A stretch of 64,000 bases of DNA from Lachnospiraceae bacterium (lineage in GTDB: Bacteria; Bacillota; Clostridia; Lachnospirales; Lachnospiraceae): assembly GCA_016281335.1 (NCBI GenBank), contig JAEEIK010000036.1, positions 1 through 64,000 of the forward strand. The letters run 5' to 3'. Shown one piece after another: positions 22,950-63,097 of this stretch. The notes below the pieces were generated by a model. It was not told the DNA's origin and ran no database searches. It saw nothing but the letters and a program-made list of their open reading frames with translations. The position numbers and the translations under genes are program-made. The stretch's first letter is position 1, and every line of letters starts with the position of its first letter.

Positions 22950-22989
22950 AAAATAAAAAACCGCCGGGGAACCTGCAGTACCCAGACGG
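22950..22989 (-). terminator. Riboswitch-controlled terminator before the IMP genes
   Basis: On the minus strand CCGTCTGGG pairs with CCCCGGCGG (22961-22989), followed by TTTTTTATTTTT. The 5' arm is the same CCGTC that forms the riboswitch pseudoknot, so binding of ZTP and termination exclude each other. Confidence 0.8.
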
Positions 22990-23071
22990 TCGGTTTCTTC
23001 TTTCAAAGATATGCTTCACGTGGTAAACTCCACTAACCCGAACACCGGGTATCCCGTCAGTCACATATCTG
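22979..23071 (-). ncRNA. ZTP (pfl motif) riboswitch
   Basis: On the minus strand P1 is AGATATG (23064-23070) with CATATCT (23007-23013), enclosing the invariant GTGACTGACGG, a P2 hairpin and the AGTGGAG...CCAC segment. After a linker comes CCGACCGTCTGGG; GACGG (23054-23058) pairs with CCGTC (22985-22989) as the pseudoknot. These are the hallmarks of the pfl motif that senses ZTP/ZMP, a sign of low 10-formyl-THF. It controls the PurO-like and PurH-like genes by antitermination. Confidence 0.88.
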
Positions 23072-23085
23072 TTTTTAATAAATAC

Positions 23086-38278: not shown

Positions 38279-38345
38279 AAAAACAAAACCCGCGGCTATA
38301 GGCTTCCCCTTGAGGGGAAGCTGTCAGCCGCAGGCTGACTGATGA
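38279..38345 (-). terminator. araD-side terminator formed by a dispersed repeat
   Basis: GCGGCT and AGCCGC flank an inner GGCTTCCCC-TTGA-GGGGAAGC stem (38294-38330). Read on the minus strand it is followed by GGGTTTTGTTTTTTT, so it can end the araD transcript; glnA ends in the A-rich other side. The GGCTTCCCCTTGAGG core also occurs at 27201. Confidence 0.65.
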
Positions 38346-38353
38346 GGTGTTAT

Positions 38354-39052
38354 TCAATTCTGTCCGTAATAAGCATTAGCCCCGTGTTTTCTGAAGTAGT
38401 GCTTATCCTGGAGTTCCTGGGGAGCAGGCGCTACGTCAGGTTTGATCAGTTCAGTCCTAAGAGCCATCTTGGCTACTTCGTCAAGAACCACTGCATTGTG
38501 GACTGCTTCATGCGCATCCTTGCCCCAGGCAAAAGGTCCGTGATTCTTGCACAGACATGCAGGCACAGCCAAGATGTCCAGACCGCGGCTCTTGAATTCA
38601 TTGACTATCAGGTGCCCGGTGTTCTCCTCGTATGCATCCTCTATCTCGTCTTTGTTAAGTGTACGCAGGCAGGGAATGGATCCGTAAAAATAATCCGCAT
38701 GAGTGGTTCCGTAGCAGGGAATATCACGTCCCGCCTGGGCCCAGCTGGTTGCATAGGAAGAGTGCGTATGTACGACTCCGCCTATCTCCGGGAAAGCGCG
38801 ATACAGCTCGATATGCGTCGGTGTATCGGAAGAAGGCTTGAGCTTTCCTTCCACTTTCTCACCGGTAGCAATATCCAGCACCACCATGTCCTCGGGTTTC
38901 ATTATCTCGTAATCAACCCCGGAAGGCTTGATCACGCAGAGATTCTTCTCCCTGTCCACTGCCGACACATTGCCCCAGGTGAAAGTCACCAGTCCGTATT
39001 TCGGAAGCAGCATGTTGGCTTCATATACTTCTTTCTTTAACTCTTCAAGCAT
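38354..39052 (-). CDS. araD: L-ribulose-5-phosphate 4-epimerase
   Basis: Converts L-ribulose-5-phosphate to D-xylulose-5-phosphate, the last step of L-arabinose entry into the pentose phosphate pathway. The 232-aa class II aldolase-fold protein has the substrate-binding KPSGVDYE, the zinc site [12 protein letters not shown] (about 95-97) and the later [10 protein letters not shown] and [11 protein letters not shown]-type segment ([12 protein letters not shown]). It begins six bases after the AraB stop, whose codons contribute the ribosome site. It is followed by a terminator. Confidence 0.95.
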
Positions 39053-39057
39053 TTACT

Positions 39058-40653
39058 TCACCCCACATTCTCTACAGCGCTTCTCTCTACCGCAAGCGCT
39101 TTCTTATAGTCATCAAGGAAGCTGTCGAAACCGTCCATGTCTGCCTGGTCGGCAGCAAGAGTTTCTCTCTTCGCAGCTGCGAATACTTTCTTATCCAGGA
39201 AGTCTTCAAGGCTCTCGCCCTCAGCCTTCTGTACACAGTAAGCCGCAAGTATGGCCATACCGTAAGGTCCGCCTTCTCCCGCGGATTCCATAACGGTCAC
39301 AGGACACTTGGTTGCAGCGGAGAGTATCCTCTGGCCCGCCTCGGGAGTCTTAAAGAAGCCGCCGTGTCCCATCAGGCTGTCAACTTCCGCCTTCTCCTCC
39401 TTGATCAGTATCTCCATGCCGATAGCGAGAGTAGCCATCGCAGACATCAGGTTCGCGCGCATGAAATTGCCGAGATTCAGTTTTGCATCCGGCTTTCTTA
39501 TGAACAGCGGTCTTCCTGCGTCAAGCTTGGTCACGCCCTCACCTGAGATATAATTGAAAGGTATCAGTCCGCCCGCATCCTTCTCACCGGAAAGCGCAGC
39601 CTTGAACAGCGTCGTATAGAGCACATCATTTGATACACTTAAGCCTGCTGCCTCCACAAAGCCTTTGAACAGGCCTGCCCAGGCGTTGATATCGGAAGTA
39701 CAGTTATTGCAGTGTACCATGGCTACAGCGCTTCCTGCGGGAGTAGTCACCATATCCAGCTCTTCATGTCTGCCTATGCTGTTCTTAAGCACTACCATGG
39801 CGAAATCCGAAGTACCCGCAGATACGTTTCCTGTTCCTTCCTTTACGGCATTGGTAGCTACCATACCGGTTCCCGCATCTCCCTCAGGGGGCGCGCAGAG
39901 AATGCCGGGCTTAAGAGCGCCGCTGTCATCAAGGAAAGCCGCGCCTTCTGCAGTCAGCGTTCCCGCTGCTTCACCGGCGCATTTTACCTTGGGAAGTATA
40001 TCTCTTAACTTAAAGCCATAGTCAGAAGCAAGGCTGTCGAACTTATCGACCATGGCCTGATCATAATCAAGCGCCTTGGAATCTATCGGGAACATACCCG
40101 AAGCTTCGCCTATGCCCATCACATTCTCGCCGGTCAGGCGGTAATGGATATAGCCGGCAAGGGTCGTTAAGTGAGCCAGATCCTTTAAGTGCGCTTCCTT
40201 ATTAAGCATTGCCTGATAAAGATGCGCTATGCTCCAGCGCTGTGGGATATTAAAATCAAAGAGATCGCTGAGTTTCTCCGCTGCTTCACCGGTCATGGTA
40301 TTTCTCCAGGTACGGAAAGCTGCCAGCTGCTTCCAGTCCTTATCAAAAGGCAGATAGCCGTGCATCATCGCAGATACACCGATGGCTCCTGTAGTGGTCA
40401 GCTCCACTCCGTATTCATCCTGAACGTTCTTCTTAAGATCCGCATAGCAGCTCTTGATACCCTTGATGATGTCATCATCCATATGATAGGTCCAGATGCC
40501 GTCTTCCAGGCGGTTCTCCCAGGTGTACTCACCTGCAGCGATGCTGTTAAATTTTTCATCGATCAGCGCCGCTTTTATCCTGGTGCTTCCCAGCTCTATG
40601 CCCAGAGCCGTCTTCCCCTCTACGATAGCTTTTTTGATCATTTCCTTGTCCAT
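39058..40653 (-). CDS. araB: Ribulokinase-type FGGY sugar kinase
   Basis: A 531-aa FGGY kinase, assigned to L-ribulose phosphorylation by the adjacent araD. The N-terminal phosphate loop GIELGSTRIKAALID, the substrate region (MMHGYLPFDKDW) and the C-terminal ATP-binding MGHGGFFKTPEAGQRIL and GEGGPYGMAILAAYC are seen. Length fits ribulokinase, a little shorter than the classical 560. The gene begins 28 bases after the DUF6171-like gene and ends just before araD. araA (isomerase) is not in the window. Confidence 0.92.
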   Translation of the reverse strand: MDKEMIKKAIVEGKTALGIELGSTRIKAALIDEKFNSIAAGEYTWENRLEDGIWTYHMDDDIIKGIKSCYADLKKNVQDEYGVELTTTGAIGVSAMMHGYLPFDKDWKQLAAFRTWRNTMTGEAAEKLSDLFDFNIPQRWSIAHLYQAMLNKEAHLKDLAHLTTLAGYIHYRLTGENVMGIGEASGMFPIDSKALDYDQAMVDKFDSLASDYGFKLRDILPKVKCAGEAAGTLTAEGAAFLDDSGALKPGILCAPPEGDAGTGMVATNAVKEGTGNVSAGTSDFAMVVLKNSIGRHEELDMVTTPAGSAVAMVHCNNCTSDINAWAGLFKGFVEAAGLSVSNDVLYTTLFKAALSGEKDAGGLIPFNYISGEGVTKLDAGRPLFIRKPDAKLNLGNFMRANLMSAMATLAIGMEILIKEEKAEVDSLMGHGGFFKTPEAGQRILSAATKCPVTVMESAGEGGPYGMAILAAYCVQKAEGESLEDFLDKKVFAAAKRETLAADQADMDGFDSFLDDYKKALAVERSAVENVG

Positions 40654-40680
40654 AAGCCTTCTCCTTATATATTAATATTA

Positions 40681-40923
40681 TTACCATTTCTTACCGGGGC
40701 AGTGTCCTTCCTTCGCCGCGGCCCTGAGTTCCACGAAACAACCGCATTTAAGGCAGGTCCCCGCCGACAGTTTCTCGCATTCCCTGCAGATATCAAGCCG
40801 CCTTGCGTACTCTTCATCGGATACCTTCATCTCAGCATCCATCCATTCCACCTCTTTTGCGATAAGCTGCCTGTACTTCTCTTCATCATACTCCTGCAGC
40901 AGACATTTCACACAAGGCTTCAC
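40681..40923 (-). CDS. Small Cys-rich protein (DUF6171-like)
   Basis: An 80-aa protein with eight cysteines in pairs: CVKC near the N-terminus, CRECEKL near 47, CLKCGC near 58 and a final HCPGKKW. The pattern suggests one or two zinc sites. It resembles the DUF6171 group, whose function is unknown. The ATG overlaps the abfA stop, and araB follows by 28 bases, so it is made together with arabinose enzymes. A regulatory or chaperone role is possible, without evidence. Confidence 0.85.
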
Positions 40924-42428
40924 CCTAATACAGCCTCAATATGCATAACGCTTGCAGCCGGCAGAGTAAACTTAAGCTTTCCGCCCTCTATCTTCAGTCC
41001 GTCAAAGGCCTTCTTCGTCACCTTCTCGGGATCGTCAAAGGTATTGTGCTCATGAATCTCGCCGCCCACGATCTCTGCCTTCGCTTCGGCTATGCCGTTC
41101 TCAGCAAGTACTGCCTCTATCTCCTGATCCTTATCTATCGAGAGGTTGCAGAGTGTGATATGAAGCTTGCCGTCTTTGTCAACGGATACGGATTCGTTAA
41201 GCGCGCATACCTTCTTATCATCTTCTATGCCGATCTCCTCGTTCTCGATAAAGCTCTCAAGCAGCTCGTTATCCTGATGATGCTTATACATGTTAAAGAC
41301 GTGGTAGGTCGGAGTCTTCACCATCTTCTCGCCCTCAGTCAGTATCACTGCCTGCAGCACGTTAACGAGCTGGGCTATATTCGCCATCTTTACCCTGTCG
41401 CAGTGCTTATTGAAAATGTTTAAGTTGATGCCTGCCACCAGCGCATCCCTTATGGTGTTCTGCTGGTAGAGGAAGCCCGGGTTTGTTCCCTCTTCCACAT
41501 CATACCATGTACCCCACTCATCCACGATCAGAGCCACCTTATTATCCTTGTCATACTTGTCCATGATGTTGGTATGTCTTCTTATCAGCTCGTCCATGAA
41601 CAGGGTCTTGTTCAGCGTGTCATACCAGGTCTTGTCATCAAAATCAACGGCGCTTCCCTTATGGTTCCAGTCATGAGGCACCGTGTAATAATGCAGTGAA
41701 AGTCCGTCCATGAAGCCGTGGGCATTATCCGGCATATTCCTGTAGCAGGTATCCAGCACCTTGTCGGTCCAGTTGTAATCAGAGGCATTGGCGCCGCAGG
41801 CTATCTTAAAGATAGGCTTCTTCGGATCATAATTCCTGATATAGGTCTGATACTGTCTGTAAAGATTTCCGTAGAACTCCGGATTCATGTTTCCGCCGCA
41901 GCCCCAGTTCTCATTGCCTACCCCGAAGTAGTCAACTTTCCAGGAACTCTCGCTTCCGTTCTTCTTACGAAGGTCAGCCATGGGAGATACGCCTTCAAAG
42001 GTCATATACTCCACCCATTCGCTCATTTCCCTTACGGTGCCGCTTCCCACGTTACCGTTGATATAGGTCTTGCAGCCAAGCTGTTTGCAAAGTTCCATGA
42101 ACTCATGAGTTCCGAAGCTGTTATCTTCCACTACTCCGCCCCAATGAGTGTTGATCATCTTCTTCCTGTTCTCTTTCGGGCCTACACCGTCCAGCCAGTG
42201 ATACTCGTCCGCAAAGCAGCCGCCGGGCCATCTGAGCACGGGTATCCCCATTTCCTTAAGAGCTGCGATCACATCATTCCTCATGCCGTTGGTATTGGGT
42301 ATGTCCTTGCTGTCCCCCACATATAGCCCCTCGTAGATACATCTTCCGAGATGCTCGGAGAAATGTCCCTGCAATTCCGGATTGATGTGTCCCATCTTAT
42401 TCAGGGGATTGATATACAGTTTCTTCAT
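40920..42428 (-). CDS. abfA: Alpha-L-arabinofuranosidase, GH51
   Basis: Removes L-arabinofuranosyl residues from arabinan and arabinoxylan oligosaccharides; no signal peptide, so it acts inside the cell. The 502-aa protein contains PEIQGH-like [20 protein letters not shown] near the start, the [13 protein letters not shown] substrate loop, acid/base Glu in [10 protein letters not shown] (about residue 173) and nucleophile Glu in [18 protein letters not shown] (about 297). The gene follows the hybrid kinase by 29 bases with AAGGAGG. A TATAAT lies at the kinase stop, so a separate promoter is possible. The product feeds araB and araD. Confidence 0.94.
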
Positions 42429-42457
42429 TTGCTACCTCCTTAAAAAACTTTTATGTA

Positions 42458-45133
42458 TTATAATAATTTTTCCAGTGTCTCAAACAGCACTTCGGGCTGT
42501 ATAGGTTTTGTAAGATGCGCGTCCAGCCCGGCCTGCAGGCTCTTCTGTACATCTTCATCAAAGGCATTGGCTGTAAGAGCGATCATCGGGATCTTTTTGG
42601 CATCCTCCCGCTCCATCTGGCGTATGGTCTCTGCCGCTTTAAGTCCGTCCATTACCGGCATGCGCATATCCATAAGTATTGCATCATAGTATCCGGCGGG
42701 ATGGGCTTCAAACATATCTACCGCTTCTTTCCCGTTTTCCGCAACCTCCGCTTCTATCCCTCTCATCTGAAGGATGTTTACCATGATCTCGGCATTGATG
42801 CTCATATCCTCTGCAAGAAGTATCCTGCGTCCCTCAAGATTTACATCTTCCCTGACTTTCTTATCCCCGGTCTTAGGGTACTCAGTCGACTTCCTGTCCG
42901 AATCAAGCAGAGTCAGCGTCACTGTTATGGTGGTTCCTTTTCCCTGCTCACTCTCAACCTTTATATCACCGTTCATCAGCTCAACCAGATTCTTCGTTAT
43001 AGCCATGCCAAGGCCCGAGCTTCCGTATTTATTGCTTACGCCCTCATTCTCCTGGCTGAAGGTATCAAAGAACTTAGGCAGGTACTCCTTGCTCATTCCT
43101 ATGCCGGTATCGGCAATCTTAAACACCAGAGTGGTCTTCTTATCAAAGGATGCCTTTTTCTCAACAGCGAAATTGATGCTTCCGTTCTCGGGCGTGAATT
43201 TCACGGCATTACCGAGGATATTGATAAGCACCTGCTTAAGCTTTATCACATCACCTATGTAATACTCCGCAGGCTCCCCGCTTATATCACATTTATACTC
43301 CAGCTTCTTTTCCTCGCACTGTCCCGAAAACATGGTATTGATCTGTTCGATCATCCTGAAGAATGAGAACTCTTCGTTCTTTATCACTATCCTTCCCGAC
43401 TCTATCCTGGACATATCAAGTATGTCATTGATAAGTCCCAGCATATGCTTGGCGGATTCCCCTATCTTTTCCAGATGTTCCCTTGTGTTATCCGATATAT
43501 CCGGATCATTGAGTGCCAGCGCATCCAGGCCGAGGATCGCATTCATAGGAGTCCTGATCTCATGGCTCATATTTGAAAGGAAGACTGTCTTTGCCTTGCT
43601 GGCTTCCTGAGCCGTTTCCAGCGCATCTGAGAGAGCCTGGTTCTTAGCAAGAGAATCCCTCATCTCCTCATCTATATCACAGAAGCCCGCGCCCACGGAA
43701 CGCACCCGCTTATCCTCAGCGTGTTCGGCATCCCTTACGCCTGCCAGCTTCAGCATTTCATAGCTTTCTCTGCCGTCTCTGTTGATCAGATATCTCAGAC
43801 TTACCACCTTATCATTCTTAAGATGTTCCCTTATCGAATCCGGTCTTATGAATTCCAGGAAAGCCTCACGGTATTCCTCTGTCACATAACGTCCGGCATA
43901 TTCCTCGAAGCTTTCGGGATAATCAAATTTATCCCCGGGCGCCACGCCCTCTCCGTTATACTCTTCCTTCCTGTAACAGATGCCTCTTAAGGTATCCAGA
44001 TCCAGATAATATACGCTCCTGTAATCAGAGGAGAGCGCGCTTATCATGTTATCCTGCTGGGAGCGCATCTTCTCCTGTTCCAGCAACTCATCCTGCAGGG
44101 CTACACGCTCCTCCAGTTCCTGCTGCATCACCTCTGCCGTAGCCTGCTCGGTGGCCAGCTTTGTAGCTTTCCTTGTCTGTATGATCAGGAAGACCGATAT
44201 CACAAGCAAAACAAGAGCGGTAACCAGCGACTGTGCCAGGCTTCTCTTTATGATGCCGTCGCTGATATTATCTATCTGTTCACTGATCACGCTCTCCCTG
44301 ATCAGATAGGTCAGCATCCAGTCCGTTCCTCTTATGGGAACATAGCTTAAAGTCTCTTTAATATCGTTGTAGGTAAAGGATACAACGCCCTCATGCCCTT
44401 CGGCGAAATGCTCCCTTACGGTTGCCGCCGAATAGCCCTTCTCATATTCCGCCTTATCCAGTGCCGCCAGCAGATTGTCCTCTGCCGAGAGCCCGCCTAA
44501 CACCAGGTTGGTCAGTGCTCTTCCGTCTGAAGTATAGATATTGCAGAAAGTGGTATTGTTATTATCTGATTTAAGTGACAGCATCTCAAGAAAGACATTC
44601 ATGTCTATCTCTTCAAAACAGGCCACCAGTATCTGCCCCTGGAACTCAAGCCTGTCCACAGGTACCGCTATAACAACCTTCTTGTTGTTGCCATCTTCGT
44701 TCTTAAGGGATATCTCCGGCTCGGAAAGTGTATTAGGATCAAAGGCATAGCAATCTATATCCGTCCTTGTGCCCCGGGATGTATAGATCAGGCCGTTCTC
44801 ATCCACAAAGGCAAACTTCTCCAGATCATGCAGCTGCTTCATCCTGAGCTGGTATTCCTGAAGCTTTTCCACCGAGCTTAAGTCATCCTTCTCAAGCATG
44901 CCGATAGCCACATCCATACCCTTTATGTAATCGGAAAGAGTGGAAGATACCACCTGCTCGCGCCTTCCGGCCAGCTCGTCCAGATACAGGAGGCTTACGT
45001 TTCGCACGGCCTTCTCAGTATCACGACTGGCTGTCTGCCCGCTCCATATGGTACCTATCACCAGTATCGCCGCTATGATCAGGCTTCCGATGACGGCCGC
45101 CGTCATTATCCCTCTGTATTTTCCCTTTTTCAT
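42458..45133 (-). CDS. Hybrid histidine kinase with Cache sensor and receiver
   Basis: An 891-aa membrane kinase. Helix 1 (about 10-30), an extracellular double-Cache-type sensor (about 35-300), helix 2 (about 305-325), coiled coil, a PAS-like domain (about 360-485, SSDYRSVYYLDLDTLRGICYR), HisKA with NMSHEIRTPMNAILGLD (about 535), HATPase with DTGIGMSKE and GSSGLGMAI, and a C-terminal receiver with DAILMDMRMPVMDG. The start overlaps the upstream kinase gene (ATGA). The PAS-HisKA-HATPase core is closely similar to that kinase. No DNA-binding output exists in either, so output is likely by phosphorelay to the HPt or the REC proteins. Confidence 0.93.
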   Translation of the reverse strand: MKKGKYRGIMTAAVIGSLIIAAILVIGTIWSGQTASRDTEKAVRNVSLLYLDELAGRREQVVSSTLSDYIKGMDVAIGMLEKDDLSSVEKLQEYQLRMKQLHDLEKFAFVDENGLIYTSRGTRTDIDCYAFDPNTLSEPEISLKNEDGNNKKVVIAVPVDRLEFQGQILVACFEEIDMNVFLEMLSLKSDNNNTTFCNIYTSDGRALTNLVLGGLSAEDNLLAALDKAEYEKGYSAATVREHFAEGHEGVVSFTYNDIKETLSYVPIRGTDWMLTYLIRESVISEQIDNISDGIIKRSLAQSLVTALVLLVISVFLIIQTRKATKLATEQATAEVMQQELEERVALQDELLEQEKMRSQQDNMISALSSDYRSVYYLDLDTLRGICYRKEEYNGEGVAPGDKFDYPESFEEYAGRYVTEEYREAFLEFIRPDSIREHLKNDKVVSLRYLINRDGRESYEMLKLAGVRDAEHAEDKRVRSVGAGFCDIDEEMRDSLAKNQALSDALETAQEASKAKTVFLSNMSHEIRTPMNAILGLDALALNDPDISDNTREHLEKIGESAKHMLGLINDILDMSRIESGRIVIKNEEFSFFRMIEQINTMFSGQCEEKKLEYKCDISGEPAEYYIGDVIKLKQVLINILGNAVKFTPENGSINFAVEKKASFDKKTTLVFKIADTGIGMSKEYLPKFFDTFSQENEGVSNKYGSSGLGMAITKNLVELMNGDIKVESEQGKGTTITVTLTLLDSDRKSTEYPKTGDKKVREDVNLEGRRILLAEDMSINAEIMVNILQMRGIEAEVAENGKEAVDMFEAHPAGYYDAILMDMRMPVMDGLKAAETIRQMEREDAKKIPMIALTANAFDEDVQKSLQAGLDAHLTKPIQPEVLFETLEKLL

Positions 45134-47625
45134 TTTCTGTCTGCCTTCCCGTCGTATTCCCAGATGAGTTCTTCCAGCGTCTGATAAAGTCTTTCTGTCT
45201 CCACGGGTTTGGAAAGATGCGCATTCATGCCCACCTGCAGTGAGCGCTGCACATCCTCGTCAAAGGCGTTGGCCGTTAAAGCAATTATGGGCACAAGTTT
45301 TGAATCTTTCCTGTCAAGCGCCCTTATCCTTGAGGCAGCTTCGAGGCCGTCCATCTCGGGCATCCTGATGTCCATGAGCACTGCATCATAATGCCCCGCC
45401 TCACTCTTCTCAAACATCTCCAGCACAAGCTTTCCGTTTTCAGCATGGTCCACCTTTGCTCCTTTAAGCCTTAAGAGTTCCTTCATGATCTCGGCATTTA
45501 TGATCACATCCTCCGCCAGCAGTATATTCCTGTCCGCAAGCTCAGCCCGCTCCTTTTTCACAAACATGGACATATTGTTTCTTCGAGCGACGCGCTCAAA
45601 TTCTCCGATGACATTGGATGCAAAGAGCGGCTTGGCAAGAAAACTGTCCACGCCTATATGCAGCGCCTCGTCCATGATCTCATCCCAGTTAAACGAAGTG
45701 AGAATGATGATAGTGGTCTCGCTGCTGTATAGCTTTCTTATCTCCTTTGCCACCTCTATGCCATCCATATCAGGCATCTTCCAGTCCAGCAGTACCAGAT
45801 TGTACGGCTCCTGTTTGGTATGCATTACTTCCAGCATATGCAGGGCATCGGTCCCGTTATGACAGGTATCTGCCTTGATGCCCGCTTCATCCAGCACCAT
45901 CCTTGCATGCTCGGCTGCTATCTCCTCGTCATCCACCACCAGTACCCGCATCTCTTTCGGATCGATCATGATGCCCTCAACACAGTGATCACAGTTCTTA
46001 AGGGTTACCACAACGGTAAACTCGGTTCCCTCTCCTTTCTTCGAAGTAACACTGATGGTACCGTTCATGATCTCCACGATATTCTTGGTAATGGCCATGC
46101 CCAGTCCGGTGCTTCCGTACTTGTTATTCCGGCTGCTGTCCTCCTGGGTAAAGGTGTCAAAAACTTTCGGAATAAAAGCCTCATCCATTCCTATACCTGT
46201 ATCGCTTATGGTGAATCTTATGGTCGACTGGTCTTCATAGACCGCAGTTCTTTCAACGCCTAAGATGATCTCCCCTGGAGGATCCGTAAACTTGATGGCA
46301 TTGCTGAGTATATTGATCAGCACCTGTTTAAGCTTCATATCATCGCCGATATAATAGTCCGATACTCCTCCGGTCATTCTGCATTCGTATTTAAGTCCCT
46401 TGTCACTGCACTGGGTCATGACCATGATATTGATCTGCTCCAGCATGGACCTGAAGGAGAATTCCTCTTTTCTGAGGATCATCCTGCCCGACTCTATCCT
46501 GCTCATATCCAGGATATCATTGATAAGCCCCAGAAGATGTCTGGCGCTTTCTCCTATCTTTTCCAGGTATTCTCTGGTAGAAATATCAAGATTTTCATTT
46601 CGAAGCGCCAGGGAATCCAGACCGATGATCGCGTTCATCGGGGTCCTGATCTCGTGGCTCATATTTGATAGAAAAGCGGTTTTTGCCTTATTTGCTTCTT
46701 CCGCAGCCTTAAGAGCTTCGCTTAAGGCCTGGTTCTTTGCCATTGATTCACGCATATCGGAATCTATATTGGTCAGTCCCAGGCCGACCGCATGGACGAT
46801 CTTGTCATCCCTGTCGGCTGCCTGCCTGACCCCGGCCATGCGGATCATTTCATAATAATCTTTTCCGTTCCTGTGCACCAGATAACGGTATGCGATCAGA
46901 AGCTCCTCCGCCAGCTGTTTTCTCACATTCTCGGGATCGATGAATTCAAGAAAACCTTCACGGTAGCTTTCATCCACCGCCTCATTTGCATAATGGGTAA
47001 AACGTTCCAGATAAGGAAAGTGTATCCCCTCCTTCGTCTGATCGTCATCAAGGGGATCTCCGCGGTAACAGACCGCATCATTTTTATCAAGATCGACATG
47101 ATATACGCTGCGGTAATCGGAGGCCAGAGCTGTGATCATCTTGTCCTGCCGATCTCTCAGGCTCTGCTCTTCCATGAGCATTGCTTCCGCTTTTTTAGCT
47201 TTCTCAAGTACCTGAGCATGTTTTTCGGTTATATCGGATATAAATACGTAATATACCCCGCCGTAATTCTCCGTCTCCGAATAATGTCCATAATCATCTA
47301 TCCATCTGACCTCGCCGTCTTTTCTGATGATACGGTATTCCACATGGTCCAGGCTTTCATCGCTTTTACGCACCTGATCCACCACCGACTCGGATACCAT
47401 GGCATAGTCATCGGGATGGAGCATACCCTTAAAAGTATATCCGGTCAGGATCTTAAAGTCTTCCAGATCATCACAGCCGAATATCCTTATGACAGCGTCA
47501 TTGGCATAGAGCAGTTCTTCCTTTCCCTCAGCCTTGTAAATGAAAAAACCGCCGGGCATATGACGCCCGATATCCTCTATGGCATTCATCGCCTGTTCAT
47601 TTAGCACGGGGTATTTTCCGAACAT
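45130..47625 (-). CDS. Soluble PAS hybrid histidine kinase with two receivers
   Basis: An 831-aa protein with no membrane helix: PAS domain (about 15-135, FIYKAEGKEELLYANDAVIRIFGCDDLEDF), a second PAS-like domain (about 170-300), HisKA with NMSHEIRTPMNAIIGLDSL, HATPase (DTGIGMDEA, GSTGLGMAI), then receiver 1 (LVLLDWKMPDMDG) and receiver 2 (DAVLMDIRMPEMDG). The ATG at 47625 has GAGG five bases upstream, seven bases after the HPt stop; the longer frame to 47673 lies inside the HPt gene. It is a paralogue of the next kinase and stands beside an HPt gene, the classic parts of a multistep relay. Confidence 0.92.
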   Translation of the reverse strand: MFGKYPVLNEQAMNAIEDIGRHMPGGFFIYKAEGKEELLYANDAVIRIFGCDDLEDFKILTGYTFKGMLHPDDYAMVSESVVDQVRKSDESLDHVEYRIIRKDGEVRWIDDYGHYSETENYGGVYYVFISDITEKHAQVLEKAKKAEAMLMEEQSLRDRQDKMITALASDYRSVYHVDLDKNDAVCYRGDPLDDDQTKEGIHFPYLERFTHYANEAVDESYREGFLEFIDPENVRKQLAEELLIAYRYLVHRNGKDYYEMIRMAGVRQAADRDDKIVHAVGLGLTNIDSDMRESMAKNQALSEALKAAEEANKAKTAFLSNMSHEIRTPMNAIIGLDSLALRNENLDISTREYLEKIGESARHLLGLINDILDMSRIESGRMILRKEEFSFRSMLEQINIMVMTQCSDKGLKYECRMTGGVSDYYIGDDMKLKQVLINILSNAIKFTDPPGEIILGVERTAVYEDQSTIRFTISDTGIGMDEAFIPKVFDTFTQEDSSRNNKYGSTGLGMAITKNIVEIMNGTISVTSKKGEGTEFTVVVTLKNCDHCVEGIMIDPKEMRVLVVDDEEIAAEHARMVLDEAGIKADTCHNGTDALHMLEVMHTKQEPYNLVLLDWKMPDMDGIEVAKEIRKLYSSETTIIILTSFNWDEIMDEALHIGVDSFLAKPLFASNVIGEFERVARRNNMSMFVKKERAELADRNILLAEDVIINAEIMKELLRLKGAKVDHAENGKLVLEMFEKSEAGHYDAVLMDIRMPEMDGLEAASRIRALDRKDSKLVPIIALTANAFDEDVQRSLQVGMNAHLSKPVETERLYQTLEELIWEYDGKADRK

Positions 47626-47632
47626 TGACACC

Positions 47633-47962
47633 TCATTCGATAAAGCGTTTTCTCTCTTCCCACATTTTCGCAAGCAGCGGGCTGTAATCCGCTTCCTGCT
47701 TAGCCCTTAACATTTCGGTCATCTCACTCACCGGCTCATATATCGGAGTCAGCGAAAGATTAGCCAGCACTCCCTTCAGAGCGTGGGCTGCCTCAAAAGC
47801 TTCCGTAAGTCTGTTTTCTTTTATCTGTTTTTCCAGCTCATCATAGCCCTTCTGCTCAAGAGCCATTCCCACGAGCCTTAAATAAAACTCCTGATTGTTT
47901 CCGCAGCGCATAAGTCCCTGCTCGGTATCAGCTCCGAGTTCTTTCAGCTTTTCTACCGTCAT
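47633..47962 (-). CDS. HPt phosphotransfer protein
   Basis: A 109-aa histidine phosphotransfer protein. The site His is in AFEAAHALKGVLANLSL (about residue 60), with the usual following Lys-Gly. It consists of a helical bundle only. It overlaps the REC-GGDEF-EAL gene (ATGA) and precedes the hybrid kinases. It likely shuttles phosphate between the receivers of the kinases and the receivers of the c-di-GMP protein; this link is inference from position and domain type. Confidence 0.9.
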   Translation of the reverse strand: MTVEKLKELGADTEQGLMRCGNNQEFYLRLVGMALEQKGYDELEKQIKENRLTEAFEAAHALKGVLANLSLTPIYEPVSEMTEMLRAKQEADYSPLLAKMWEERKRFIE

Positions 47963-49674
47963 CCCTGTACCTCCGATTCCGTTCTCTCTTTGATAAATGC
48001 CTCAAAATCCTCTGCACATACAGGCTTTGAAAAATAATATCCCTGTATCACATCGCAGCCCATTTCCTTAAGGATTTCATACTGTTCCTTATATTCCACG
48101 CCTTCGGCCACTACTTTTACCTTCAGGTACTTTGCGATGCCCATTATGAATTCCACCAGCTTAAGGGCTCTTTCATCCTTATGGATATTTCTTACAAAGA
48201 CCATATCCAGTTTCAGCACGTCAAAAGGCAGTTCGTTCAGCATGTTAAGCGAGGAATAACCCGTTCCGAAATCATCCATCTCTATGGTAAAGCCCTTGTC
48301 CTTCATGCCTTTAACGAGACTTATCATATCTGCCTGATTGTCGGTATATGCGGATTCCGTGACTTCCAGATAATAGTCTGCTGTTTCGATCCCTGCCTCT
48401 TTGACTATAGTCTCAAGCTCATCGGCAAGATCCTCACTCATGATATCCACGCGGCTCACATTGACCGAAACAGGTATCTTTATACCGTATTTCTTTTCCC
48501 ACTGCGCTATCTGAGCCGCCGCTTCCTTCCAGACATAGCGGTCCACCTTTCCTATCAGGCCGTTGTTCTCAAAAAGAGGTATGAACTTTCCGGGACTTAT
48601 CATACCAAGCTCCGGATGCACCCATCTTATCAGTGCCTCCGCGCTGGACAGTACCGGTTTTTCACCCTGCACACCGTACTTTGGCTGATAGAATACCTTA
48701 AACTGCTTTTCCGCTATCGCCTTATCCAGATCATGTATCAGCAGCTCGTCATAGTGTTCTTTTTCCCTTATCTTCTCATCATAGCAGGATATATGCCTTC
48801 CCGGATCCTGCTTGGTACTGTTGCAGGCAAGGAGCGCCAGCTCCATTCTCTTTGAAATATCAGCTTCTTTCTCCGCCTCTTTATATATGCCCATTCTCAC
48901 TCTGGTATCCGAATTGCCGAGAAGTTCATTAAGAGCATTATTGATGGCAGCATACAGCTCCTCTCCGTTACCTTCGCCGTTCAGATACAGATAAAACTGA
49001 TCGGCGCTGTAACGGCAGGCAAGTCCTTTTGTCTCTCCCGCGTATTCTTTGACCGTCTTTCCTATAGCGGCTAATACCCTGTCACCGAACTCTCTTCCGT
49101 GTACCGCATTTATCACATGGAATCTGTTGATATTAAGAGCTATCAGTTCCTTAGACCCTTCAGGATAATACTGGTCAAAGATCGTGGAATACTCGCAAAA
49201 ATACTCTCTGTTGAAAAGCCCGGTAAGCGTATCGAACTGGGTAGCGGTAATGATATTCCTGCCTTCGTACAGCTGTATGATCCTGTCTATCCTGGTATGG
49301 ATCACCTCCGGTATGTCATAGGGCTTCGGGATAAAGTCCGCCGCTCCCATCTTAAGGCTCCTAACCTCCGCTTCCTTCTCGGAAGTAAGGACTATAACCG
49401 GGACATCCTTAAGCGCTTCATCTTCCCTGACCTTTTCAAAAAATTCATATCCGTCCATTACCGGCATATGAAGGTCAAGAAGTATCAGCGAAAGTCTTTG
49501 CTTTTCATTCTTCGCCACATTAAGCGCCTCACTGCCGTCAGCTGCAAGCAGGACTTCATAGTCATCCTCCAGTATATTGCCGAGCATAAGCCTGTTTATC
49601 TCTTCGTCATCAACTATGAGTATCCGTCTCTTCATGCTCAGACGGCTTTTAACAAAATCATTCTGCGTAACCAT
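47959..49674 (-). CDS. REC-GGDEF-EAL protein, probable c-di-GMP phosphodiesterase
   Basis: A 571-aa soluble protein. Receiver with LILLDLHMPVMDG (about 60-70), a degenerate GGDEF domain (about 145-300) where RYSADQF replaces RxGGDEF, and an EAL domain (about 310-565) with AEALIRW, VNVSR, LEVTES, MDDFGTGYSS, VLKLD, VVAEGVE and QGYYFSKP, i.e. all known catalytic residues. It should degrade c-di-GMP, with the dead cyclase as a regulatory site. The ATG at 49674 has GAGGAGG. Overlap with the HPt gene suggests that receiver phosphorylation sets activity. Confidence 0.92.
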   Translation of the reverse strand: MVTQNDFVKSRLSMKRRILIVDDEEINRLMLGNILEDDYEVLLAADGSEALNVAKNEKQRLSLILLDLHMPVMDGYEFFEKVREDEALKDVPVIVLTSEKEAEVRSLKMGAADFIPKPYDIPEVIHTRIDRIIQLYEGRNIITATQFDTLTGLFNREYFCEYSTIFDQYYPEGSKELIALNINRFHVINAVHGREFGDRVLAAIGKTVKEYAGETKGLACRYSADQFYLYLNGEGNGEELYAAINNALNELLGNSDTRVRMGIYKEAEKEADISKRMELALLACNSTKQDPGRHISCYDEKIREKEHYDELLIHDLDKAIAEKQFKVFYQPKYGVQGEKPVLSSAEALIRWVHPELGMISPGKFIPLFENNGLIGKVDRYVWKEAAAQIAQWEKKYGIKIPVSVNVSRVDIMSEDLADELETIVKEAGIETADYYLEVTESAYTDNQADMISLVKGMKDKGFTIEMDDFGTGYSSLNMLNELPFDVLKLDMVFVRNIHKDERALKLVEFIMGIAKYLKVKVVAEGVEYKEQYEILKEMGCDVIQGYYFSKPVCAEDFEAFIKERTESEVQG

Positions 49675-49684
49675 AGCTTCCTCC

Positions 49685-50077
49685 TCAGTATTTTTTCAGT
49701 ATGTTCTCAAGCCTTTCCCAGATAAGAGAAGGTTCATAGGGCTTGCATATAAAATCGGCAATGTTATAGGGAAACGTCTTCATCAGATTGTCGCTGGTGC
49801 TCTCAGCCGTGACGATGATAACCGGTATCTTTACCTCATTCTGCTTCAGTATTTCCAGCACACTGAAACCGTTCATGATAGGCATATGCAGATCCAGCAT
49901 TATACAGTCGATCAGCTTACTTCCCCGGAGGATCACTTCCAGGCCCTCATATCCGTTTTCTGCAGTCTCCACCTCGTAGCCGCCGAGATTCAGTATGCCT
50001 GTAAGTATCTCCCTGTCGATCTCCGAGTCGTCTATGATCAGTATTCTTTTTTCAACATCATAATCTCCGTAATACAA
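49685..50077 (-). CDS. Single-domain response regulator
   Basis: A 130-aa stand-alone receiver: RILIIDDSEIDREILTGIL, phosphorylated Asp in CIMLDLHMPIMNG (about 60), and Thr/Ser and Lys in VIIVTAES and FICKPYEP. There is no output domain. The likely start is a TTG (50077) with GGGGG about 11 bases before it; no in-frame ATG is near. It sits 10 bases before the REC-GGDEF-EAL gene. It probably acts as phosphate sink or relay component. Confidence 0.85.
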   Translation of the reverse strand: MYYGDYDVEKRILIIDDSEIDREILTGILNLGGYEVETAENGYEGLEVILRGSKLIDCIMLDLHMPIMNGFSVLEILKQNEVKIPVIIVTAESTSDNLMKTFPYNIADFICKPYEPSLIWERLENILKKY

Positions 50078-50098
50078 CTGACCGGGCCCCCTTTAATC

Positions 50099-51997
50099 TT
50101 ACTTATGGTGTTCCTTCTTTATGTCATACATCTGTTCATCCGCCAGTCTCAGGGCTTCCTTTATGTCAAAGTTTTCATCGAATACGGTGGTATTGGAGCC
50201 AAGGCTGCTCATTACCGTGTATTCCTTCCCCGAACCGGCATTGTATTCATTGAGAAACTTAAGTATCCTCTCGGTGATCCCGGCTACGTCATATTCTCCG
50301 ATGATCACCGCAAAGAGTTCGTCGCCGCCGAAACGTACACAGAGTGAATCTTCCGGGCAGGAAGTATGCAGTGCTTTCGCAGCTGTAGCTATGGCATTGT
50401 CACCCTCGGCATGACCGAAATTATCATTGATGTATTTAAGCCCGTCCAGATCCGACATCAGCACAGTTACGGGCTTACCGTACTTCCTCTTATCGTTTAT
50501 CACATATTCGAAAGCGTTATTAAAACCGACACGGTTATAGAGACCTGTCAGCGGATCTCTCTTGTACATTGAGTCAATGCGCTCTGCCAGGTGTTTCTGG
50601 TACATCATGTTTACGTAGCCGCCGATGCCCATTCCTATGGTATTGCTGATATTGGCGGTGCGTGAATAATCCGTTATATCGTAATCCGTATAAGCAAAAC
50701 AGATATATCCCAGGGACTTATCCATGAAATCGATGGTGTTGAATATCAGGGGATAGCCCTTCCATATCTTTCCCCTGAACCTTTCATTCTCGGCCCTTAA
50801 AAGCGTCTGGTTCAGATGCCGCTCCGTAAGCCAGGGCGCAACCTTGGGATCATATACGAGGGTATACTCGGTAGGATCGATCTTTTCCTCTTTCTCGTCA
50901 AAAAAATAATTATCGGCATCAAGCAGACGTCTGTTCAGCACGAAAGATACATCCTCCACCATATCCTGATCGTTGATGATCAGTTTCTTAAGATGTGAGA
51001 CCATCTCTGCGGGATTTCTGCTCATCTGCATCTTTGTCGTCACTTCGTGCATTATATGCACTTCGTCCTGATGCCTGTAGAATTTATTATTGAAACGTCC
51101 CAGCATGGAACTGTCATAACCTGAAAAGGCAGCGGCGCCTGTGGATTCATTGGGTATCAGCGTAGGCACGACACGTATGCTCTTATCTCCGGCTTCTGCC
51201 TTCCCCTTTGTGACTCTTTTTATCATCTCTATGGTAGCATCCGCAAGCTCCGGTGTCGTGCAGCTTGCGGTGGTAATCTTGGGCTCCGTCATGAATACTT
51301 CTTCATATCCGTCAAAGCCCGATACCACACAGTCTCCCGGAACCGAAAAACCGTTCTTTTTCAATACATCGCAAACATTGATCGCCATGATGTCATTTGC
51401 GCAGATTATCGCATCGGGTATCTCCCCGGAAGCGATCAGCTTCTCGGTCGCATCGATGGCCGGCTTGGCCCAGAACTGCCCGTAGCTTAACATGCTCTCA
51501 TCAAAAACAAAGCCGTGGGTATTAACGTATTGCTTAAATATCTCTATTCTTTCATCGGAAAAAGGATTATCCGGGATACCTGCCATGATGTGAGGCCTTT
51601 TTATCTGCTTCATCCCAAAGACATGCTCCACCACCTGCTTAAAACCTGCCGCATAATCAAAGCGTATATTCGGCAGATCACCGTATTCTCCGTCTACGAT
51701 GATAACAGGCTTGTCGTATTCCCTGGCATGATCAATGATCTTCTCGGCCACACTGTGACATTTGATCTTTTCATCCATTATCACCACCGCATCTACATGC
51801 TGGTAAGGAATGATCTCAAAAATACTGGTCTCCGCGCTGATATTGTTCTCATCCCAGTACAGATCGGAATTGATAGTGAATATCAGCAGCACGTAACCAT
51901 CAGATCTCAGTGCCTCGTTCAGCTTTTCGATATAATCATGAACCTGCGGATCATATATCCTGGATGTACACAGTGCCACGATCCTTTGATCTTTCAT
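50099..51997 (-). CDS. Periplasmic-binding-like/GGDEF diguanylate cyclase
   Basis: A 632-aa soluble protein. The N-terminal half (about 1-285) is a LacI-type ligand-binding domain (VALCTSRIYDPQVHDYIEKLNEALRSD, VVIMDEK, DAIICANDIMAINVCDVLKKNGFSVP, VVSGFDGYEEVFMTEPKITTA) but has no helix-turn-helix and no signal peptide. A middle region (about 300-460) is GAF-like, and the C-terminus is a GGDEF domain (DPLTGLYNRVGFNN and VRFGGDELFAVI) with an active-type signature and no RxxD inhibitory site. So c-di-GMP synthesis would respond to a small molecule, probably a sugar. The ATG at 51997 is preferred for ribosome-site spacing. Confidence 0.9.
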   Translation of the reverse strand: MKDQRIVALCTSRIYDPQVHDYIEKLNEALRSDGYVLLIFTINSDLYWDENNISAETSIFEIIPYQHVDAVVIMDEKIKCHSVAEKIIDHAREYDKPVIIVDGEYGDLPNIRFDYAAGFKQVVEHVFGMKQIKRPHIMAGIPDNPFSDERIEIFKQYVNTHGFVFDESMLSYGQFWAKPAIDATEKLIASGEIPDAIICANDIMAINVCDVLKKNGFSVPGDCVVSGFDGYEEVFMTEPKITTASCTTPELADATIEMIKRVTKGKAEAGDKSIRVVPTLIPNESTGAAAFSGYDSSMLGRFNNKFYRHQDEVHIMHEVTTKMQMSRNPAEMVSHLKKLIINDQDMVEDVSFVLNRRLLDADNYFFDEKEEKIDPTEYTLVYDPKVAPWLTERHLNQTLLRAENERFRGKIWKGYPLIFNTIDFMDKSLGYICFAYTDYDITDYSRTANISNTIGMGIGGYVNMMYQKHLAERIDSMYKRDPLTGLYNRVGFNNAFEYVINDKRKYGKPVTVLMSDLDGLKYINDNFGHAEGDNAIATAAKALHTSCPEDSLCVRFGGDELFAVIIGEYDVAGITERILKFLNEYNAGSGKEYTVMSSLGSNTTVFDENFDIKEALRLADEQMYDIKKEHHK

Positions 51998-52036
51998 CGG
52001 CATATCTCCCTTTCCGATATTTAGCCCATCTTCCCC

Positions 52037-52065
52037 ATTATAACAAACAAGGGCGGCCCATACAA
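52037..52065 (-). promoter_or_regulatory. Promoter of the signalling operon, overlapping a terminator
   Basis: TTGTAT (52060-52065), 17-base spacer, TATAAT (52037-52042). The -35 lies in the loop of the hairpin that ends the kinase gene before it. Confidence 0.68.
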
Positions 52066-52076
52066 GCCGCCCTTTG
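52046..52076 (-). terminator. Terminator of the envelope-stress cluster
   Basis: AAGGGCGGC and GGCCGCCCTT form a GC-rich stem (52049-52074) followed by TTGTTTG on the minus strand, 24 bases after the kinase stop. Confidence 0.8.
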
Positions 52077-57963: not shown

Positions 57964-60141
57964 TTACTGAAGATTTGCGAAACACTCCTGCATGATGTAG
58001 TAGGATTCTTTGAGACGTTCGTGGAAGCTGACACCGTTCCAGTCTTCCCAGGTATATGAAGCGGAGACGCAGGACTCGCCTGCTTTGACACAGCTTACAT
58101 AGATGGCGTCGATCTTTTCGCCGACACCGAGACGTTTGTTGGTCCAGAAATCTCCTTCGACGGTTTTGGTGGAAGGATCGCGGAAATTGAGAAGCGCCCA
58201 GGGTATCCTGATCTCAAGGAATTTGCCTGAGTAATTGAAATCAGTGAGCGGATCGTAACCGTCCGCGGTAGGATTGCTGAATCCTTTTTTAAGTTTGCCG
58301 GTCTCGTAGCGTTCCGCGCCGCGCTCTTCTCCGGTAGTGGGTATTGTAAAGGGTTTGTTGAGGCAGAGATATATGGGTGTAAATATATCGTTGTCTGCTT
58401 CCCTGTATTTCTTCCATTCAAGCTTGTCGTCCATGTAACGGTATGCAAAGGCATAACGGTCATAATAGCTGTGATTGTAGATGTGGCTGTTGTTGGCGCC
58501 ATCAATGTCTATGACAAAATCAGCATCCCTGTCGAATTCCGATCCGCCGTAGGTATCACAGCCGGATAAGGGGGTTACGTCTATGGGAAAATAGAGATGC
58601 GCTGCGCCAATGCCTTCTTTTTCAAGGCGTGCCGCAAGATAGAGATAACGTTCGTCATGTTTCATATACAGCTTTATATCAGTGTTTTCCTGAAGCAGAT
58701 CCTCTTCACTCCAGTCGTTGTCTTCCCCGTCAATGTTAACTATGAAGCCCTCCGAACCGGGATCAAAGGCAAGCAGTCCGAAGCTCTGCTCACTGGTCTG
58801 TATGTCGGACCAGAAGGGGCGGCGTCCCGCATCGGAATAATCCATGGTATTCCAGGTACGCTTGAACCACTCATCCTGCCAGGCAAATACCAGCCCGCCG
58901 GCACAGCCGCATTCATAAATGTCTTCAGCCATGTGCTTTAAGGCTTCTCCCTGCTGTTTTTCATCGAGGGCCCCCTGGTTGTATCCGCTGTAGGGATTCA
59001 CGTGGGTACAGCCTCTGGATGTCGGCACACCGAATTCCGCTATCAGCACCGGCAGTGTATGTATGGACATAAGGTCTTTGAGATAAGCTTCATAGGTATC
59101 GATCTCGTCATTCTCATCACGGTAATCAACGTAATCCTGCTGCAGTATCATATACTCGGGATAGTACGGATACACATGATATGATGCAAAAGTTCCGGCC
59201 GCATAGCTTTCTCTTACATGGAAGCGTTCCACGTTCATGGTCACCGCATCTTCTATGTCGTACAGCGGCTCTCCGGGGTGCGAAAGCTCGTCCGCAGTCT
59301 GCCAGTTGGCCCAGCTTAAGGGCCGCTGCATCTTGTATTCCTGCATCTCATAGCTTACAACACGGTCACCGAACTCACAAAGGAAAGCATCAAAGGGCTG
59401 CACCTCATCATCGGTATACAGATAGTTCCCCTTATAGCAAGTCTTATCCGGATGACGCATATTGGTAGTATTGATAAAATAGGCATCCGACTCTATGCCG
59501 AGTATCCAGCCGAGAACGTATTCGGAGATATCACAGTTGTATACGCCGTAGGCCTTGCCCACACGCTTCTCCACGGCGCCTTTACCGTGGATGATATCTA
59601 CCTGCTCTTTGGCTTCCGCCACCGCATCCTCCAATACATCAAAGGCATCACCTGTGCTCTCGATGGTATCCTCGTCGTACCATACTCCCATTACCAGATA
59701 CAGCTTTTTGTCGGATACCCTGTTGTACTCATAGAAGGCATTGTAAAAAGCCGGCATCATCGTGGTGTAGATGCGGATCGTATTGCAGTTCATCTTTGAG
59801 ATATCGGAAAACCAGTCGAAATAAACGGATTCGGGAACGGCCAGTTCACCGGGGAAACTCCCGGGATAACCGGAGCCTATGTTCACTCCGTTAAGATAGG
59901 TCTTTACGAATTCTTCACCGTTGTAGATATGAAAATATCCGTCGGCAGCCTTAAATCCCAGGTCCGAGCCGGAGTAGGTATCATGATAAAGCGGCTGTTT
60001 CCAGGCATCCGGCAGGCTCTCGGTAGCGGTGCCGAAACTCATCTCGTTGCCCATGGGTATCGTGCCTGCCTTGTCCCAGGGCATGCTGCAGGAACTGAGG
60101 AAAAAGAGAGCTGTAAGTAACAGGGCCGTGAGTTTTTTCAT
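57964..60141 (-). CDS. TIM-barrel glycoside-hydrolase-like lipoprotein
   Basis: A 725-aa lipoprotein: signal peptide with lipobox LFFLSSC (Cys 18), a (beta/alpha)8 barrel of the GH2/GH5 clan (about 60-470) with TYLNGVNIGSGYPG near 85, VYPYYPEYM, and LPVLIAEFGVPTSRG as the likely nucleophile Glu strand (about 365), then WQDEWFKRTW and a C-terminal beta domain (about 470-725). It is tethered outside the cell. It overlaps the polytopic membrane gene by four bases and is probably part of polysaccharide handling. The substrate cannot be named. Confidence 0.83.
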   Translation of the reverse strand: MKKLTALLLTALFFLSSCSMPWDKAGTIPMGNEMSFGTATESLPDAWKQPLYHDTYSGSDLGFKAADGYFHIYNGEEFVKTYLNGVNIGSGYPGSFPGELAVPESVYFDWFSDISKMNCNTIRIYTTMMPAFYNAFYEYNRVSDKKLYLVMGVWYDEDTIESTGDAFDVLEDAVAEAKEQVDIIHGKGAVEKRVGKAYGVYNCDISEYVLGWILGIESDAYFINTTNMRHPDKTCYKGNYLYTDDEVQPFDAFLCEFGDRVVSYEMQEYKMQRPLSWANWQTADELSHPGEPLYDIEDAVTMNVERFHVRESYAAGTFASYHVYPYYPEYMILQQDYVDYRDENDEIDTYEAYLKDLMSIHTLPVLIAEFGVPTSRGCTHVNPYSGYNQGALDEKQQGEALKHMAEDIYECGCAGGLVFAWQDEWFKRTWNTMDYSDAGRRPFWSDIQTSEQSFGLLAFDPGSEGFIVNIDGEDNDWSEEDLLQENTDIKLYMKHDERYLYLAARLEKEGIGAAHLYFPIDVTPLSGCDTYGGSEFDRDADFVIDIDGANNSHIYNHSYYDRYAFAYRYMDDKLEWKKYREADNDIFTPIYLCLNKPFTIPTTGEERGAERYETGKLKKGFSNPTADGYDPLTDFNYSGKFLEIRIPWALLNFRDPSTKTVEGDFWTNKRLGVGEKIDAIYVSCVKAGESCVSASYTWEDWNGVSFHERLKESYYIMQECFANLQ

Positions 60142-62612: not shown

Positions 62613-63097
62613 TTTACGTTTCCTCCCATATCCTCAAGTATGTCGTCAAGCACCGCATCAATAACATTATGCATCACTTCTTCGGTATATTCTTCCAGAT
62701 GGTAACTGTCAAAAGCATCATTGAAATTGATGATATAGCTTCTGGTAGGCGTCTCGCTGCCTTCAATTGATAACAGCCTTCCGCCTATCTTCTTCACGAG
62801 TTCCTGCACGCCGTGGCCGAAAAATTCCACCATATTCTCAAGTGTGGGAGCTATGGCATCAAAGGGATCCACGTCATTTAACACCCTGTTCTGATAAGGT
62901 CTGAAAAAGGCATCTATGGCTTTCTCATACACATTGAATTCCACAAAGCTCTCCCTGCCTATCAGTATGTTTAGTGTAAACTCCCAGGTATGCGGATGAG
63001 TCTCGCCTCTCTTGTTATTGAAGATCACCCAGTGATTCCCGTTCAGATAGAATTTCAGTCTGTATTCCTGAAATAATCTGTTCTCAAAGTTTTTCAT
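62609..63097 (-). CDS. PTPS-fold protein (6-pyruvoyltetrahydropterin synthase family), likely non-catalytic
   Basis: A 162-aa protein with PTPS landmarks: GNHWVIF for the first His, HPHTWEF for the H-x-H metal pair (about 34-36), and APTLENMVEFF corresponding to PTSEN. The catalytic Cys between these and the Asp-His pair expected in LDHxxLN (here NRVLNDVDPF) are missing. So metal may bind but the synthase reaction is unlikely. It is coupled by overlap to both the polytopic protein gene and the upstream gene. Confidence 0.85.
   Translation of the reverse strand: MKNFENRLFQEYRLKFYLNGNHWVIFNNKRGETHPHTWEFTLNILIGRESFVEFNVYEKAIDAFFRPYQNRVLNDVDPFDAIAPTLENMVEFFGHGVQELVKKIGGRLLSIEGSETPTRSYIINFNDAFDSYHLEEYTEEVMHNVIDAVLDDILEDMGGNVN

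Follow-up and report, generated by a model that had tools for sequence, protein, structure and literature searches.

Ten genes on the minus strand of a 64,000-nucleotide stretch of Lachnospiraceae DNA (the window) run from a cyclase with a LacI-type ligand core, through a phosphorelay set with a phosphodiesterase, into genes for arabinan use. The row is apparently a nested, recently built arrangement and not a conserved ten-gene system. Our leading interpretation, held at slightly less than even confidence, is a nested operon that joins a sugar-binding-type cyclase, the phosphodiesterase of a phosphorelay set and arabinan use. The genes, their order, domains and catalytic motifs, the order in a sister genome and the recurrence of the phosphorelay cassette are read directly from DNA; the single message, the order of insertion, the ligand, the phosphate path, the direction of control and the output we infer.

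An open reading frame and Pfam check agreed with a preliminary description of this DNA on the ten genes, their strand and their order (Table 1). The gaps, given there as 29 bp or fewer, are 21, 10, −4, −41, −4, 29, −4, 27 and 5 bp in transcription order, and the four-base overlaps it mentioned join PDE to HPt, HK1 to HK2 and abfA to the DUF6171 gene. The −41 value comes from a TTG at 47673 that opens the HK1 reading frame. Because two homologues align from the ATG at 47625 and not from the TTG, that ATG is the likely true start, which would make the gap to the HPt gene 7 bp. A hairpin with a T run follows araD at 38336-38287, where a terminator had been claimed. The promoter proposed at 52037-52065 also exists (TTGTAT-17-TATAAT, 9/12), yet its position coincides in part with the terminator that ends the two-component/ABC operon upstream. 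The same promoter layout precedes the cyclase orthologues of the relatives G022 (TTGAAC-17-TATAAT) and G014 (TTGATT-17-TATAAT); farther upstream of these promoters, the sequence is unlike the window's. Direction, gaps and the lack of a terminator before abfA agree with a single operon.

Table 1. Features of the ten-gene row and its borders in window coordinates, in the direction of transcription.
Feature	Position	Strand	Basis or remark
Terminator hairpin of the upstream two-component/ABC operon	52049..52074	-	overlaps cyclase promoter
Promoter-like TTGTAT-17-TATAAT (9/12), 5' of cyclase gene	52037..52065	-	
Predicted diguanylate cyclase: LacI-type core, linker, GGDEF (GGDEL); 634 aa	50099..52003	-	Pfam; second ATG at 51997
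Block from REC to HK2, 7.66 kb, absent between the same flanks in G022	42441..50101	-	blastn
Stand-alone receiver (REC), TTG start	49685..50077	-	Pfam
PDE: REC, degenerate GGDEF (SADQF), EAL; predicted phosphodiesterase	47959..49674	-	Pfam and EAL motifs
HPt phosphotransfer protein, AHALKG from residue 59	47633..47962	-	Pfam and motif
HK1: PAS hybrid histidine kinase, two receivers, soluble	45130..47625	-	Pfam, hydropathy
HK2: hybrid histidine kinase, one receiver, two membrane-like segments	42458..45133	-	Pfam, hydropathy
Candidate internal promoter TTGAGA-15-TATAAT, inside HK2 3' end, before abfA	42457..42483	-	
abfA: GH51 alpha-L-arabinofuranosidase, without membrane-like segment	40920..42428	-	Pfam (GH51-type C-terminal domain), hydropathy
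DUF6171 small Cys-rich protein	40681..40923	-	Pfam; between abfA and araB in relatives
FGGY sugar kinase, araB-like, without equivalog call	39058..40653	-	Pfam
araD: L-ribulose-5-phosphate 4-epimerase (class II aldolase/epimerase)	38354..39052	-	Pfam, NCBIfam
Strong 3' hairpin plus T run closing the unit; neighbouring glnA is convergent	38287..38336	-	

The first part of the cyclase had been called binding-protein-like. It does have a ligand-binding fold, but this is a LacI-type core, and hydropathy shows no signal peptide-like or membrane segment; the protein is therefore predicted to be cytosolic and probably faces the cytosol. A periplasmic sugar-binding receptor was rejected on the same ground, since without a hydrophobic segment there is neither signal peptide nor anchor. 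A LacI/GalR transcription factor was likewise rejected, as the protein starts at the first strand of the core and a search for the N-terminal helix-turn-helix (PF00356, E 0.001) gave no match. Its GGDEF domain (Pfam E 3.6e-30) carries GGDEL at residues 559-563, with L in place of the final F, a GGDEF-type active site that predicts a diguanylate cyclase; no RxxD inhibitory site was found in it. Foldseek with the AlphaFold model (mean pLDDT 81.7) matched the ligand core to sugar-binding LacI-type cores, and the top 13 matches include ribose-bound RbsR (E 2.8e-15) and the AraR effector domain (E 8.1e-15). Because other LacI-type cores are equally close, the fold assigns no single ligand. Within the core, R152 and N203 do not vary in alignment A3 (one truncated row included) and D231 hardly varies; presumably, these correspond to sugar-contacting residues of LacI.

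EAL phosphodiesterases are marked by the motifs EAL, DDFGTG, KxD and EGVE. The PDE of the row has all four next to its own degenerate GGDEF domain and, by these motifs, is a predicted c-di-GMP phosphodiesterase. Phospho-acceptor motifs were found in the H-boxes of HK1 and HK2, at the HPt histidine and at the receiver aspartates of REC and PDE. A strict receiver pattern matched one of the two HK1 receivers and not that of HK2, and Pfam detects all of them. The region of HK2 between its membrane-like segments is probably extracytoplasmic. By gene content, hybrid kinase, HPt and receiver-linked EAL protein stand in one cluster, a putative multistep phosphorelay of the VieSAB kind.

At the sugar end of the row, the closest solved relative of AbfA is 2vrk, and AraD passes the cut-offs of three NCBIfam models. 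The gene described earlier as araB does encode an FGGY kinase, but one that reaches no NCBIfam cut-off, and the Cys-rich protein can now be placed more exactly as DUF6171 (Pfam). Classical araA (PF02610) was found neither in the window genome (92.9% complete) nor in G022, with matches in control genomes; 2 of 35 genus genomes have it, G013 (C325) and G015 (C124). As classical araA was not found and the kinase passes no model, the row does not qualify as an operon of the araBAD type, and the label arabinose catabolism rests on GH51 AbfA and AraD. A 494-aa fucose-isomerase-like protein (PF02952) may be the isomerase that replaces araA, a function that no model names. Its gene lies near abfA in G007, G008, G013, G015, G019 and G030, at 75-94% identity and with frames split in G008. 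In the window genome, a search of the window, the rest of C43, C27 and 14 kb of C104 gave no match to it. AraR-type operators, for which we take the strict pattern to be TTGTNCGNACAA, were not found in the window, L035, L036 and 12 other abfA loci scanned.

Comparison with relatives hints at the origin of the row. The window genome, G000, pairs with its sister species, G022, in the tree (97/91; 94/90 in the 33-row tree), with G014 next. On contig C68 of G022, the cyclase gene (76% identical) is followed by abfA 43 bp past its stop, and no T-tailed hairpin was seen between the two. This contig ends within abfA, and contig C169 opens with the rest of it (90%), followed by DUF6171 (88%), araB (95%) and araD (98%). 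The block from REC to HK2 is cleanly absent; the missing stretch starts where the cyclase gene ends and runs up to the abfA ribosome-binding site. In G014, the cyclase gene (72%) is alone and abfA lies on a different contig. Searches with HK1 (E 1e-60) and PDE (E 1e-75) gave no match in G022 or G014, and because the cassette was found in neither, its gain in the window lineage is more likely than its loss. The link between cyclase and abfA, being present in G022 without the cassette, is older than the cassette or independent of it. The supposed connection of cyclase and arabinose genes is thus backed by a second genome, but the idea of ten genes that belong together in one message is weakened, the full order being seen in the window only. 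Downstream of the row, glnA directly follows araD in the window; on C169 the convergent glnA is 2.8 kb beyond araD. Between these two genes in G022 (L036 3423-4253) is a match to a PD-(D/E)XK transposase-family nuclease that is weak and misses the curated cut-off, and the window is geneless there.

The junction of HK2 and abfA bears on a somewhat less probable explanation than the nested operon, in which two or three units abut by an accident of insertion: the signalling unit would end in HK2, and abfA, DUF6171, araB and araD would have a promoter of their own. According to the preliminary description, a strong internal promoter and terminator between 42458 and 42428 would refute a single message. 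No terminator was found in this gap, but a promoter-like TTGAGA-15-TATAAT is present at 42483-42457. No other site on the sense strand of these 13,650 bases reaches 11/12, and shuffled versions of them (n=100) yield 0.16 such sites on average. The spacer range of the scan, 15-19, was our choice. At 15 bases, the spacer of this site is short, and with spacers of 16-18 the sense strand of the 13.65 kb holds no site of at least 11/12. In G011, G016, G032 and G028, abfA shares an upstream stretch, absent in the window and G022, which we read by eye as a putative promoter of its own, TTGC[AC][AT]-17-TAAATT; that the window and G022 lack it favors the nested operon. The window genome is also rich in kinase genes and in GGDEF domains (42 matches, 41 above cut-off), and with so many of the latter a chance adjacency with the cyclase is not negligible. 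This abundance favors abutting units, as do the restriction of the gene order to the window, the separate contigs of cyclase and abfA in G014 and the sole promoter-like site of at least 11/12 before abfA; all four count against a nested operon. The many cyclase loci without a glycosidase next to them and the terminators in G032, G028 and G016, both described below, weigh on the same side, as does the failure to find classical araA. However, abutting units fit poorly with ten codirectional genes spaced by 29 bp or less, with a 29-bp gap before abfA that lacks a terminator, and with G022, where cyclase and abfA adjoin without any cassette.

The nested operon supposes that the cassette existed before it reached this site. 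We compared 13 PDE loci (at least 43% identity): the window, 11 other genus rows and one of another genus, G193, which entered through its cyclase and not through the PDE search. HPt adjoins PDE at 12 of the 13, the exception being a 1510-aa fusion. In G010, a sensor kinase gene precedes PDE and HPt, and a PAS kinase gene follows them; the sensor kinase shares 51% identity with HK2 across the sensor region, and the PAS kinase 53% with HK1. In G019, PDE and HPt are followed by one kinase, 49% identical to HK2, and the kinases of both genomes are homologous to those of the window across their sensor regions. Judged by these recurring gene orders, the cassette is a real, recurring unit. About 0.4 kb 5' of the cassette in G019 is a gene for a 264-aa protein with a C-terminal barnase-type ribonuclease domain (L055 7850-8644).

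Four of the 13 PDE loci adjoin a glycosidase or pectinase-like gene, and at three of them the gap is 29 bp or less. In the window, abfA is 29 bp from the cassette, and in G193 a GH3 gene is 5 bp downstream. In G010, a beta-helix pectinase-like gene lies 15 bp upstream of the cassette, with GH43 86 bp before that gene. At the fourth, in G032, GH53 is 99 bp from the cassette with a terminator between GH53 and PDE, and an ABC transporter and a LacI regulator lie upstream. Of the nine remaining loci (G019, G031, G013, G028, G016, two of G006, G012 and G017), Pfam scans covered the cassette neighbours of the first five and returned housekeeping, signalling or unrelated genes. In G193 (L068 2427-11159), the PDE-HPt-kinase cassette and its GH3 gene are convergent to a LacI-core cyclase gene of the same family. 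By gene content, parts of these kinds have here come together a second time, in another genus.

For the cyclase family itself, we read all 24 genus rows that reach 43% identity, including two partial ones. Directly 3' of the cyclase gene is abfA in G022; in the window the cassette comes first, followed by abfA. GH5 overlaps the cyclase gene by 4 bp in G023, GH5 within 3 bp and then GH3 follow it in G030, G015, G013 and G019, and GH67 overlaps it by 4 bp in G389, of another genus. No glycosidase was seen directly downstream at 17 of the 24 genus loci, for which only part of the neighbours were scanned. Among 72 named loci with a downstream gene, a glycosidase of the reference set is directly downstream within 100 bp in two (L099 and L100) and in none of the other 70; this is a lower bound, because the labels cover only the glycosidase families in a small reference set. 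The L100 protein is identical to that of G030. In L154 a GH3 match, a weak one, lies 111 bp downstream, and L142 (Butyrivibrio) has a GH51 gene 2.4 kb away on the other strand. A rule that the cyclase always stands beside sugar genes was discarded: 37 co-directional neighbours include Cellulase twice and Alpha-amylase once among the families listed (25 of 62), and further ones are HSP33, copper ATPase, RadA, a TetM/EF-G-like protein and SNF2.

In a second arrangement, the cyclase gene comes just after the fucose-isomerase-like gene in G028, G016 and G011, with G032 cut at the contig end, and in all four it is followed by genes for a REC-cyclase, a REC-HD-GYP protein and two kinases. The exception is G011, where no HD-GYP protein was seen and where truncation leaves a cyclase of 234 aa. 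Because the same isomerase gene is also near abfA in six genomes, this arrangement may be a second, separate meeting of the cyclase family with arabinose genes. A single clade of the arabinose-linked cyclases of G000/G022 and G016/G028 was rejected (p-AU 2.2e-6; 6.4e-38 for a wider group of seven). The tree for this test held 33 of 50 rows, one of the 17 dropped being a long branch and 16 being left out for speed; both trees lack the partial genes of G011 and G032. The tested group was named from neighbourhoods, but the test followed viewing of the first tree. At L164, L028, L029 and L031, a LacI-core cyclase gene is followed by genes for REC-GGDEF, REC-HD-GYP (not L031), HK-REC-HPt and one more hybrid kinase; in this c-di-GMP cluster, cyclase and HD-GYP each stand under a receiver.

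These sets lend something to another explanation, which we think unlikely, that cassette and cyclase form one motility or adhesion signalling system, that the arabinose genes ride along for their expression level, and that the ligand is not an arabinan sugar. The cyclases of G028, G016, G011 and G032 precede such a different signalling set, and in G028 and G016 a terminator and a promoter stand between the isomerase gene and the cyclase gene. In addition, numerous ligand-core residues are conserved across the aligned cyclase family whatever the neighbours. Against it stands the tight coupling of the family to three kinds of glycosidase genes.

The nested operon would work as follows. An older unit of promoter, LacI-core cyclase, abfA, DUF6171, araB-like gene and araD, still present in G022, would have received the ready-made cassette (REC, PDE, HPt, HK1 and HK2) between cyclase gene and abfA, an order of events suggested by the comparison. 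Transcription from 52037 would read through all ten genes, possibly topped up by the internal promoter before abfA. The LacI-type pocket of the soluble cyclase would take up a small ligand, in all likelihood a pentose or a pathway intermediate released by AbfA inside the cell, and the cyclase would change c-di-GMP synthesis. HK2, responding to an outside signal, and HK1, responding to an inside one, would pass phosphate via HPt to the receiver of PDE, whose EAL domain would remove c-di-GMP. Cells using arabinan would thus also set c-di-GMP, and perhaps with it attachment or motility. It is a bolder and rather improbable generalization that some soluble LacI-core cyclases are matched to the adjacent glycosidase (GH51, GH5 with GH3, or GH67), whose freed sugar would be the ligand. 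Each polysaccharide in use would therefore write its own c-di-GMP signal, and the window, with the phosphodiesterase of a phosphorelay set spliced in, would be a two-input sugar gate.

As to where c-di-GMP might act, a search of the window with Rfam at gathering scores found no c-di-GMP riboswitch; GEMM-I gave no match in the window genome or in control genomes. Of four PilZ domains in the genome none is in the window and one is on the same contig, ~69 kb away. A ZMP/ZTP riboswitch, the only riboswitch found in the window, scores above its gathering score at 22973-23074 on the minus strand. At 60138-63900 the window has a PTPS-related membrane protein cluster, homologues of which occur in L159, in a different order, at a distance of ~8 kb to the cyclase gene.

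The preliminary description had called for a search of relatives for the same gene order. None of 34 other genus genomes showed the ten-gene order, which is confined to the window among the genomes searched; the cyclase-abfA junction is also in G022. abfA is present in 19 of 35 genus genomes, and both genes in 13, joined in two. Of 397 family genomes including that of the window, 13 have the cyclase (E 1e-90), 106 have abfA (E 1e-120) and seven have both; one, the window's, has both on one contig, hence 0 of the 396 others; draft assemblies can hide such links. A plasmid search with the cassette, in near mode, gave no match. Named homologues are mostly from rumen Lachnospiraceae and Ruminococcus, which suggests that the host lives in the rumen.

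Taken together, the locus points to a possible connection of sugar digestion with how the bacterium behaves. If true, this bears on the way in which Firmicutes of gut and rumen tie attachment or motility to the digestion of fibre. To our knowledge, few sugar-sensing cyclases have a known ligand. The locus, its cassette-free sister and the glycosidase-coupled relatives offer candidate enzyme-ligand pairs that are testable with purified proteins, with no need to grow the host. What may matter more generally is that some soluble LacI-core cyclases are paired with glycosidases.

The earlier statement that no system of this composition has been described holds for the open-access literature as searched by title and abstract head. 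For Pseudobutyrivibrio, the text available to us mentions a diguanylate cyclase only among unique genes (PMC6912079). In the VieSAB operon of Vibrio cholerae, a sensor kinase with HK, REC and Hpt passes phosphate to a receiver protein (PMC4352251); the role of VieA as an EAL phosphodiesterase is taken from a title in the reference list of the same paper. The window likewise has a phosphorelay to a receiver-EAL protein in one predicted operon, but with a separate HPt gene, two hybrid kinases and an EAL protein that lacks a helix-turn-helix, and its row also holds a cyclase and sugar enzymes. Arabinose metabolism influences biofilm and c-di-GMP in Salmonella, and would similarly act on c-di-GMP here; the mechanism is left open there and the portion of the paper at hand mentions no such operon (PMC8341724). 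Sugar status also sets a c-di-GMP enzyme in the EIIA-Glc/PdeS system of Vibrio cholerae, outlined in part of a review (PMC8846402), but through the phosphotransferase system, whereas the window has a fused sugar-binding-type core. With LacI/GalR regulators and the AraR effector domain (PDB 9ny7, 3tb6), the cyclase shares the core fold and a place beside sugar-pathway genes; unlike them, it has no DNA-binding domain and its predicted output is a cyclase. The domain pairing itself is that of c-di-GMP proteins with Periplas_BP, a putative sensory domain that may bind sugars. The part of the review that we drew on names no member with a tested ligand (PMC8846402), whereas the window locus supplies a candidate ligand class.
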